From positions 73,708 through 137,707 of the forward strand of contig JAJZAT010000003.1 in assembly GCA_021799275.1 (NCBI GenBank): DNA of 64,000 nt, in the 5' to 3' direction. Origin of the DNA: Bacillota bacterium. Its GTDB lineage: Bacteria; Bacillota; Sulfobacillia; JAJZYS01; JAJYTV01. Positions 35,381 to 38,873 of the stretch are shown here, one piece after another; position 1 is the stretch's first letter, and each line of letters begins with the position of its first letter. The position numbers and the translations under genes are program-made. The notes under the pieces are model-generated. The model did not search any database and was not told the origin of the DNA. It was given only the letters and a program-made list of their open reading frames with translations.

Positions 35381-36127
35381 TCAGCGGGCGAAAGCCTGCC
35401 AGAACGGCTCCTTGGACTGGTCACGGTCGTGGCCGAAGAAGACGGCGGCATCCTCGGCTTCCGCGACCGCACGCAGCCGGTCGACGCTCGCCTGCCCCTG
35501 GGCCCTGTCCGTCATGGCGCCCAGGATGTCGTCCTGCCAGTTGCGCCGCGTATACACCGCGTCGATCGTCAGGAGCAGCGGGCGCACGCCTTGAGGCCGC
35601 AGCAAAAGCGACATGTGGCCCGGCGTATGGCCCGGTGTGTGGACGAGCCTGACGCCCGGCATCGGCTCCGCCCCGTCCTGCACGGTCTCGTAGCGCAGGC
35701 CGAGATCGATCCACTCCGGGAGCTCGGGATCCTGCCGCAGGGCCTGCAGTTCGTCCGTGTGGATCAGGATGCGGGTGCCCTGGAAGATACCGCTGCCGCC
35801 CGCGTGGTCGAAGTGCCTATGCGTGAAGATGACGCCGTCGATGTCTTGCGGGTGCAGGCCCTGGCGGTCCAGCACCTCAGCCACCATGTCGCCACTCTGC
35901 ATCTGCGGCATGATGAGGTCTCCCGGCTCCATCTCGCCGAAGTAGCGCTCGTTGCCGACGCAGCCCCTCGGCATGCCCGTATCCACCAGCAGGAGGCCGT
36001 CGTCTCCCCGCAAGAGGTAGGCCCAGATCGGGATCCGCACCACGTCGCCCACGGGATGGCCCGTTACGAGCTGCGATTGGTCGATGAGGCAGTAGCCCAT
36101 GTTCAGAAACCGCACGTCGCGCAGCAT
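35381..36127 (-). CDS. MBL-fold metallohydrolase (N-acyl homoserine lactonase family)
   Basis: GVIFTHRHFDHAGGSGIF (HxHxDH type), HTPGHTPGHMSLLL, TIDAVYTRRNW, FFGHD. Confidence 0.85.
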   Translation of the reverse strand: MLRDVRFLNMGYCLIDQSQLVTGHPVGDVVRIPIWAYLLRGDDGLLLVDTGMPRGCVGNERYFGEMEPGDLIMPQMQSGDMVAEVLDRQGLHPQDIDGVIFTHRHFDHAGGSGIFQGTRILIHTDELQALRQDPELPEWIDLGLRYETVQDGAEPMPGVRLVHTPGHTPGHMSLLLRPQGVRPLLLTIDAVYTRRNWQDDILGAMTDRAQGQASVDRLRAVAEAEDAAVFFGHDRDQSKEPFWQAFAR

Positions 36128-36795: not shown

Positions 36796-36891
36796 ATGGC
36801 GGGAAACGTGTGGCCGAACTTCGTCGTTGAGGGCCTCCTGCTGCTGGCGTTCATCGGCGCGCTCGTTCTGAGATACCCGCACCATGAGTAG
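36796..36891 (+). CDS. 31-aa single-TM small protein at head of cytochrome b operon
   Basis: GGAGGCAGGAACA-ATG; MAGNVWPNFVVEGLLLLAFIGALVLRYPHHE; stop overlaps the cytochrome b start. Confidence 0.6.
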   Translation: MAGNVWPNFVVEGLLLLAFIGALVLRYPHHE

Positions 36892-37525
36892 GCGGGACCA
36901 CGGGTCCGCCAACTGGACCGCAGCGGTGCGCAAGCAGGCGGAAACCTTCACCTGGGACATGCTGCTGCCCACGGAGCAGCCGATCTACGTGCGATCCGTG
37001 GTATACAGCTTCGGCGCTCTCACCCTTGGCGCCCTGGTGGTCGTGGTCCTGAGCGGCATCGTCCTCGCCGCGAACGGCCCCTTCTGGTGGCAGACGCCAG
37101 GCGCCGGCGCGTTCATGCGCGGAATCCACTACTGGGGCGTCCAGGCGTTCTTCTTCTTCATGATCCTGCACCTGACGGCGCAGTTCTTCATGGGCTCCTG
37201 GCGTCTTGGCCGACAAGGCACCTGGGTTCTCGGCGTCCTCAGCTTCGCCGTGTCGGTGGTCACCGCGTTCACCGGCTACCTGTCGCGCGGGGACTTCTTC
37301 TCGCAGTGGAACCAGGTGCAGTCGAAGGACGCCTTCAACGGCGCCGGCATCGGCGGCTGGTTCAACGTCCTCAACAACGGCCAGATCTACGGACTGCACA
37401 TCGCCGTCCTGCCCGCGATCCTGATCGCCATGGTCAGCCTGCACCTCCTGCTCGTGCGCAGGCACGGCGTGGTGCCGCCCTACCCTGCCGAGAATGAGCG
37501 GTTGGAAAGGGGGCCCGCCCGATGA
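36884..37525 (+). CDS. b6-type cytochrome b N-terminal domain protein
   Basis: HYWGVQAFFFFMILH (H-x13-H) and HIAVLPAILIAMVSLH (H-x14-H); FTGYLSRGDFF; four-helix cytochrome b6 arrangement. Confidence 0.88.
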   Translation: MSRRDHGSANWTAAVRKQAETFTWDMLLPTEQPIYVRSVVYSFGALTLGALVVVVLSGIVLAANGPFWWQTPGAGAFMRGIHYWGVQAFFFFMILHLTAQFFMGSWRLGRQGTWVLGVLSFAVSVVTAFTGYLSRGDFFSQWNQVQSKDAFNGAGIGGWFNVLNNGQIYGLHIAVLPAILIAMVSLHLLLVRRHGVVPPYPAENERLERGPAR

Positions 37526-38511
37526 GGCGCTACCTGACGGACCCTGAGAAGTATCCCCAGACGCGCTTCGACCTGGTGAAGGAAGCCGTGATCAGCGGCC
37601 TCGTGGTGCTGGTCCTCGTGGTCATCGCGTCCGCCGCCCTCGGCGTGCCCTACGTCAAGCCCCTCACCATCCAGCAGGTGGCCACCTCGGAGCCGGTGCT
37701 CTTCCTGCAGACGGCGGCGCACGAACTCGACGACACATCGGCGATCGCGCAGTACGGTCCGCCCTACAACAACGGGACCGGCAGCCTGCAGGCGATCGGC
37801 TCCTTCCATCCGCAGACGCTCCTCGGCGTCACCACGCCGATCAACCCGGCACAGGTCGATGTGCTACGGCCCCTCTCCATGGCGGTACCCCTTGACCCTG
37901 CGCTGAAGCCCGCGCTGTCACGGTGGGCCGCGGCGTCGCGCAGCCAGCAGGACGCCTGGGTCAACGCCTACCTGCAAGCCCTTTCCCGCGCAAGCGCGGC
38001 CGGCAGTTCGGTCCAGGTGCCAATGGCCGCCGACGGCCCGGTTCCCGCCATGCTCTCCGCCCTCAGGGCCCTCGGCTCAGGCGGGCTCATGTCGGGCGCG
38101 CTCGACCGCCTCAACCCCGTGTACCGCTACGACGTGGCCCCCAGCCTCCTGTTCCTGCAAGGGACGGCCCTGCAGCAGATGGCGCAGAAGTATGACCTTC
38201 TCGGCGGCGAGTGGGGCATCATGCACGACGAACTCAACTACCCAGGGCCCTGGTGGCTGACACCCTACACCGCCCTCTACCAGATCCCGCCCTACTCAAC
38301 ATCCCCAGCAGGCGACCTGATGGCCGCGTACAGCATGCTGATCATCCTGCTGCTTCTCCTGGCCATTCCGTTCCTGCCGGGCGTGCGCGAACTGCCGAAC
38401 AAGCTGCGCGTCTACCGCCTGGTCTGGCGGGACTGGTACCACAGCGTCGAGCGGGGACCCGGCGCCGCCACGCGCAGCGCGCAGGCCGAACAGAGGAGGC
38501 AGGCGACATGA
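37522..38511 (+). CDS. Membrane-anchored cytochrome b-associated protein of unknown function
   Basis: 329 aa, one TM near N-terminus (VISGLVVLVLVVIASAAL), large extramembrane domain, one C-terminal TM (YSMLIILLLLLAIPFLPGVRELP); ATGA overlap with cytochrome b gene. Confidence 0.65.
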   Translation: MRRYLTDPEKYPQTRFDLVKEAVISGLVVLVLVVIASAALGVPYVKPLTIQQVATSEPVLFLQTAAHELDDTSAIAQYGPPYNNGTGSLQAIGSFHPQTLLGVTTPINPAQVDVLRPLSMAVPLDPALKPALSRWAAASRSQQDAWVNAYLQALSRASAAGSSVQVPMAADGPVPAMLSALRALGSGGLMSGALDRLNPVYRYDVAPSLLFLQGTALQQMAQKYDLLGGEWGIMHDELNYPGPWWLTPYTALYQIPPYSTSPAGDLMAAYSMLIILLLLLAIPFLPGVRELPNKLRVYRLVWRDWYHSVERGPGAATRSAQAEQRRQAT

Positions 38512-38750
38512 GGGGCGTGCTCTTTCCCGTGCTGTGGTTTGGCGGGCTCGGCCTCGGCACCCTTGGCACGGGTTTCCTCTACGAGGCCGCCACGCGCGGC
38601 AGCGGCGGCGACCTTGTCCTGGGTCTCTTGCTCTTCCTGCCGGGACTCTACATCGCGGGCACGGTGCTGGCGCGCGCCCGGCTGGCCTACCGCGCCGCGA
38701 AAAACCGTCATCCGGGCGCAGAGCGCACGTCGGCGCAGGCGACGCCCTGA
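38508..38750 (+). CDS. Small (80 aa) two-TM membrane protein of the cytochrome b operon
   Basis: MRGVLFPVLWFGGLGLGTLGTGFLYEAATRGSGGDLVLGLLLFLPGLYIAGTVLARARLAYRAAK; ATGA overlap with preceding gene. Confidence 0.7.
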   Translation: MRGVLFPVLWFGGLGLGTLGTGFLYEAATRGSGGDLVLGLLLFLPGLYIAGTVLARARLAYRAAKNRHPGAERTSAQATP

Positions 38751-38835
38751 AGCCCGCATGTGCTGAGCGCCCGCGACCGCGGCAACCGAGGTAGCGGATC
38801 AGCTAGCGACGGTGCATCCGAACGACATCCCACCG

Positions 38836-38873
38836 GGTCCGGGGTGCGGCCACACAGGGCCGCGCCCCGGACC
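38836..38873 (+). terminator. Strong hairpin after cytochrome b operon
   Basis: GGTCCGGGGTGCGGCC-ACACAG-GGCCGCGCCCCGGACC, 16-bp stem (one wobble), followed by TCTCGTT. Confidence 0.6.

Follow-up and report, generated by a model that had tools for sequence, protein, structure and literature searches.

A cytochrome b6-type operon with a putative derived subunit IV and its relatives in Rieske-free genomes

Four overlapping genes at the locus

The window, which is the whole 64-kb stretch of Bacillota DNA that was analysed, carries four ORFs of 31, 213, 329 and 80 aa on its forward strand (Table 1). As the earlier note had described, each start overlaps the stop of the preceding ORF, and the first and last encode a single-TM peptide and a two-TM protein. 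The same note had placed a strong terminator at the end of the operon. A strong hairpin was indeed present there (-43.6 kcal/mol, z = -5.9), but the T tract 3' of it was weak. dN/dS against three near relatives was 0-0.13 for ORF1, 0.12-0.16 for ORF2 and 0.18-0.23 for ORF3, and that of ORF4 against two relatives was 0.3-0.5, indicating less constraint. The low values (up to 0.23) indicate that ORF1-ORF3 are real genes under constraint, ORF4 being looser. A motif scan revealed no Rieske or CxxCH motif in the four proteins, where none had been seen by eye before, or among the ORFs of the window as a whole.

ORF1 showed 63-100% identity in near relatives, a TM peptide preceded cytochrome b at the corresponding site in most other loci, and the counterpart of ORF1 in fused homologues was the N-terminal helix. 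In seven loci, ORF1, cytochrome b and ORF3 were joined in a single open frame (about 585-620 aa), and the fusion loci comprised L013, L015, L016, L017, L021, L023, L024 and more. This fusion into a single chain gives direct evidence for a unit of all three, in which ORF1 may, by analogy, be a PetG/L/N-like small subunit acting as a single-TM helper. ORF4 was seen only in Bacillota relatives (tblastn) and had no family match in Pfam or NCBIfam; we propose that it is accessory.

The neighbourhood comparison revealed no consistently linked gene beyond the operon. A gene for a metallo-beta-lactamase-fold hydrolase lay near it, at varying distance, in the window, in close relatives and at both copies of Alicyclobacillus mengziensis. 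Histidine kinase and response regulator genes were directly beside the operon in L130 and L131 (class relatives G056 and G017), and two-component genes were also near it in L021 and L024. The second Alicyclobacillus copy was followed by an FTR1 iron permease gene (L014:11513-12382), and Kdp-like genes lay downstream of the first.

Table 1 Features of the operon, with related loci outside it. Positions are those of the window unless a locus is named.
Feature	Position	Strand	Description and basis
ORF1	36796..36891	+	31-aa single-TM peptide
ORF2	36884..37525	+	213 aa, b6-type di-heme cytochrome b N-domain (predicted), 4 TM helices
ORF3	37522..38511	+	329 aa, putative derived subunit IV with large outside insert
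ORF3 helix E counterpart	37573..37641	+	residues 18-40; AF2 helix 18-40, hhalign
ORF3 insert	37678..38220	+	about residues 53-233; predicted extracytoplasmic, mostly helical
AQYGPPYNN signature	37747..37773	+	ORF3 residues 76-84, near-invariant
YPGPWWL, PEWY-region counterpart without Glu	38239..38259	+	family alignment, hhalign
ORF3 helix F counterpart	38311..38379	+	residues 264-286; AF2 helix 264-284, hhalign
ORF4	38508..38750	+	80-aa two-TM protein
G+C-rich hairpin, strong, terminator-like	38836..38873 (about)	+	folding energy
Metallo-beta-lactamase-fold hydrolase	35381-36127; L014:13010-13900; L009:763-1521		
Divergent fusions	L121:9123-10532; L122:9307-10779; L123:9906-11306; L132:8653-10200		

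The cytochrome b subunit and its partner ORF3

ORF2 matched PF13631 (E 5e-15, 56.3 bits) and PF00033 (E 8e-11, 42.5 bits), both above the curated cut-offs (27 and 27.2, respectively). Among PDB sequences it matched cytochrome b/b6 chains (best E 8.7e-10), the best of which were actinobacterial QcrB / bc1 cytochrome b, and its best NCBIfam match was ExtP (NF040969; 6e-20, 71.9 bits), below the cut-off of 290. The heme ligands H82-x13-H96 and H172-x14-H187, bis-His on helices B and D, were kept in 27 of 27 relatives covering them (H187 in 26 of 26, one row being truncated). The PF13631 match and these conserved histidines confirm the b6-type N-domain that had been recognised from its two His motifs, and on this sequence evidence ORF2 is a b6-type di-heme cytochrome b and a member of the cytochrome b superfamily. 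In b6 of the b6f complex, a Cys binds heme ci. The residue at this site, directly after the invariant Tyr41, was Ser, Val, Ile or Tyr and never Cys in all 27 aligned sequences, in agreement with the Ser reported for ORF2. The outer cd loop of the ORF2 family had an invariant set of its own, W142, K148, D149 and N152.

ORF3 had been taken for a bitopic protein that does not look like subunit IV, and neither description held. Two membrane spans flank its soluble part. No match to ORF3 was found in Pfam (none to PF00032 at E 1), NCBIfam or PDB sequences, and Foldseek returned no PDB fold match to its AF2 model. When full ORF3 with its insert was aligned with the cytochrome b C-domain (hhalign), only the second arm was aligned, weakly (P 0.0035). 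With the insert (~180 aa) removed, at a cut picked post hoc with the sequence already in view, which is a weakness of this test, both arms aligned collinearly with cytochrome b, from helix E through the PEWY/ef region to helix F (P 1.4e-5, score 36.0, probability 80%). This score was above those of 297 of 300 block-shuffled (local column) controls, and the 3 shuffles that reached 36.0 were all among the mildest (block 8). Real membrane-protein decoys, windows from COX1, MMPL, MFS, kinase and cytochrome b N-domains, scored at best 21.0 in 117 trials. The match held for most, not all, insert boundaries and was weaker for some. Because the insert-removed arms match helices E and F above the decoys, we conclude that ORF3 is in all probability a derived subunit IV that keeps these two helices, the homology being remote. 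A profile match to subunit IV, the result that the earlier note had said would speak against its reading, was found in a weak, remote and insert-removed form but not as a direct Pfam match, and the operon partners are less novel than had been claimed, since ORF3 resembles subunit IV.

The third hydrophobic helix (helix G of subunit IV) was absent from ORF3 in both the family alignment (28 sequences) and the AF2 model. The PEWY-type motif of bc1/b6f contains the proton-accepting Glu at Qo; in the family it was replaced by YPGPWW, PGQPW or PGAWW, with loss of this Glu. The PEWY region was also variable in conventional cytochromes b of the same class. Common to the ORF3 relatives are AQYGPPYNN, a WG pair that does not vary and, ahead of the last helix, a PG..W motif. 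ORF3 contains neither Cys nor a conserved His, which makes it unlikely that the insert binds a metal cofactor. From cytochrome b topology, we infer that the insert lies on the outer face. AF2 models were moderate (pLDDT 71 and 68), and the fusion model matched bc1/b6f cytochromes b (Foldseek, E 6e-6) with low TM-scores and with its C-terminal part unplaced.

To our knowledge, a Rieske protein is a defining part of every known bc1/b6f complex, and we know of no characterised b6/IV or bc1 complex that does not split quinol electrons between the Rieske cluster and heme bL. Like the b6 plus subunit IV arrangement of b6f / qcrBC-type systems, the operon has a split arrangement, with a four-helix di-heme protein ahead of one that resembles subunit IV, a ~30-aa single-TM small subunit and the H-x13-H and H-x14-H spacings. 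Unlike them, it has no Rieske protein, cytochrome f/c or heme-ci Cys, has lost the PEWY Glu, has in ORF3 an outside insert of ~180 aa that separates helix E from the PEWY-like loop, is without the third helix of subunit IV, and has a rewritten outer cd loop in ORF2. It also differs from actinobacterial QcrB / bc1 cytochrome b, in which the N and C halves are one chain and a Rieske protein is present. ExtP, the b cytochrome of a selenite/tellurite operon, is likewise a b-type cytochrome outside bc1, but its partners differ. Superoxide oxidase CybB and cytochrome b561 resemble the operon by analogy, as Rieske-free membrane cytochromes b that use quinone, but they are without a subunit IV-like partner such as ORF3. 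The complex encoded by the operon is a variant of the cytochrome b kind, distinct from the bc1/b6f complex. We found no paper describing a Rieske-free b6/IV complex.

Distribution of the family and Rieske content of carrier genomes

Relatives were found at 27 loci in the species collection, from Bacillota, Actinomycetota, Chloroflexota, Dormibacterota and one Saccharibacteria record. Alicyclobacillus mengziensis has two copies of the operon, and several of the 27 loci came from bog, fen or palsa samples according to record titles. In a search of relatives, 18 of 61 genomes carried the family, the window's own genome included, and plasmid records gave no relative. Cytochrome b adjoined ORF3 at every locus with enough sequence. 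In the phylogenetic tree, 56 family cytochromes b stood apart from 29 conventional ones from the same class, with a support of 1.0 and no misplacement. By this tree the family cytochrome b is a clean deep clade separate from the conventional ones sampled.

A divergent branch consists of cytochrome b-ORF3 fusions of ~470-515 aa from reduced genomes. These have GAWWL in place of PEWY and no AQYGPPYNN motif. Two members, L122 and L132, are near NqrB/NqrF-like, ApbE, FMN-binding or ferric-reductase-like genes, and one member of the branch is near an NDH-2-like gene.

The reduced-genome class of L021, which appears to be Saccharibacteria-like, was searched for Rieske, cytochrome c and oxidase genes. 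Rieske PF00355 was found in none of its 195 genomes, with control genomes positive, while 16 of the 195 carried the ORF3 family. The genomes of L021 and L023 (0.8 and 0.9 Mb) had no Rieske protein, and 17 reduced-type carriers all lacked PF13442, the sole heme-c family searched. Heme-copper oxidase exceeded the cut-off in 67 of the 195 genomes, and in 12 of 16 carriers vs 55 of 179 non-carriers (Fisher p = 0.0007, uncorrected for kinship). At L021, a bo3-type cyo operon lay 3 kb from the cytochrome b fusion, and the fusion shared a stretch of 10 kb with this cyoABCDE-like operon and a two-component system (gene names by eye except COX1). Two relatives of the window's genome, each of 1.6 Mb, had oxidase and cytochrome b ~17 kb apart on one contig. 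Cupredoxin was considered as an outside partner and set aside, with 8 of 16 carriers vs 57 of 179 others (by-eye count) giving no clear link.

Most non-reduced carriers have Rieske proteins somewhere in the genome. In the window's genome, a conventional transmembrane Rieske gene lies on another contig directly before a conventional cytochrome b-c gene, a second Rieske is of the small soluble type, and the single PF00032 site is away from the operon. The conventional cytochrome b there (G000:C47, L030) has a C-terminal heme-c domain (CAVCH). The absence of a recognisable Rieske protein noted earlier for the operon thus extends to the window, but not to the genome. The transmembrane Rieske protein is already partnered, given its position next to the conventional cytochrome b-c gene, and the operon is an addition to this pair.

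In L024 (Acidimicrobiaceae), a DoxX-Rieske fusion gene (PF07681 + PF00355; 6109-7503) lies ~1.5 kb upstream of the cytochrome b fusion, with a NAGPA-domain gene between them and ApbE, ferric-reductase-like and Nuo51-like genes downstream. Given this gene, some lineages may have a Rieske partner. The motif scan gave no further convincing Rieske-like ORF near the loci that it covered.

Proposed function and alternatives

We favour, with moderate confidence, the view that the operon product is a member of the cytochrome b superfamily that carries electrons across the membrane, linked to quinone and independent of a Rieske protein. Independence of a Rieske protein is highly probable, because none of the 195 reduced-class genomes has one while 16 carry the family. 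A link to quinone is likely, and a net electron flow from quinol outward is a tentative suggestion. In such a carrier, ORF2 would bind two b hemes and the complex would pass electrons to or from the quinone pool, in all likelihood at an inner site near heme bH. Electrons would cross the membrane singly via bL to an outer-face pocket, where the ORF3 insert would fill the docking place of the Rieske protein and serve an outer-face partner. This partner might be a second quinone or, outside the cytoplasm, a molecule that accepts or donates single electrons. Electron bifurcation would not be expected at the outer site, because there is no Rieske cluster. If quinone reacts at both sites, the transfer would either consume proton-motive force or depend on it as its driving force; with some other molecule at the outer site, the complex would connect the quinone pool with the cell exterior. 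The suggestion of an uncharacterised quinol-oxidising complex without Rieske is upheld only in part: its Rieske-free setting (none of 195 genomes, 16 carriers) and the lack of a description found agree with it, but its ORF3 partner resembles subunit IV, and quinol oxidation is no more than a possible activity.

The aerobic oxidase associated with the family and the charged, invariant K148-D149 in the outer loop of ORF2 could also suit an outer-face quinone-linked scavenger, like CybB or cytochrome b561/lipocalin, that moves electrons between the quinone pool and radicals. The minimal chemistry would be the same as that of Rieske-free, quinone-exchanging membrane cytochromes b, as described in the available text of PMC11869295 and PMC9113575. 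However, the protein is homologous to cytochrome b6/IV rather than b561 (PF01292 matched ORF2 with 26.3 bits, below the cut-off of 30.1), and the neighbourhood comparison gave no consistent link to detoxification genes, which makes this explanation unlikely. Alternatively, this could be a quinol:acceptor complex of the conventional bc type that is served by a Rieske protein from another locus, in which case the ORF3 insert would help it dock. The Rieske genes of most non-reduced carriers, the L024 fusion gene and the kinship of ORF3 with subunit IV agree with this, but the reduced class has carriers and no Rieske protein, the motif scan near the loci gave only the L024 case, and in the window's genome one Rieske protein is beside its conventional cytochrome b-c and the other is of the small soluble type; we consider this quite unlikely. 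That the complex anchors a larger dehydrogenase, or a flavin-based chain for extracytoplasmic electron transfer, in the membrane is improbable, since the flavin-transfer genes in question (ApbE, FMN-binding, NqrB/NqrF-like, ferric-reductase-like) are near three members, the divergent L122 and L132 and also L024, but are not general, no shared cluster emerged from the neighbourhood comparison, and the window operon stands alone.

Beyond the Rieske-independent carrier that we favour, we tentatively suggest, at somewhat less than even chances, a class of respiratory complex with a cytochrome b6/subunit IV framework, one that converts or spends energy without Rieske, either with quinone on both faces or from quinone to an extracytoplasmic partner via the ORF3 insert, and that works in minimal-genome bacteria alongside a bo3-type quinol oxidase. 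Cultured strains with members (Alicyclobacillus mengziensis, Actinospica acidithermotolerans and Streptomyces malaysiense) make this testable. The respiratory chain proposed for Saccharibacteria comprises NADH dehydrogenase II, bo3 oxidase, a blue-copper protein and an NQR-like protein, and the available text of that proposal mentions no such cytochrome (PMC6031116). If true, a conserved, fused, multi-phylum relative in Rieske-free genomes would be another use of the cytochrome b scaffold, would inform the order in which the parts of bc complexes were gained, and would supply a missing component of the still sketchy Saccharibacteria respiratory chain.
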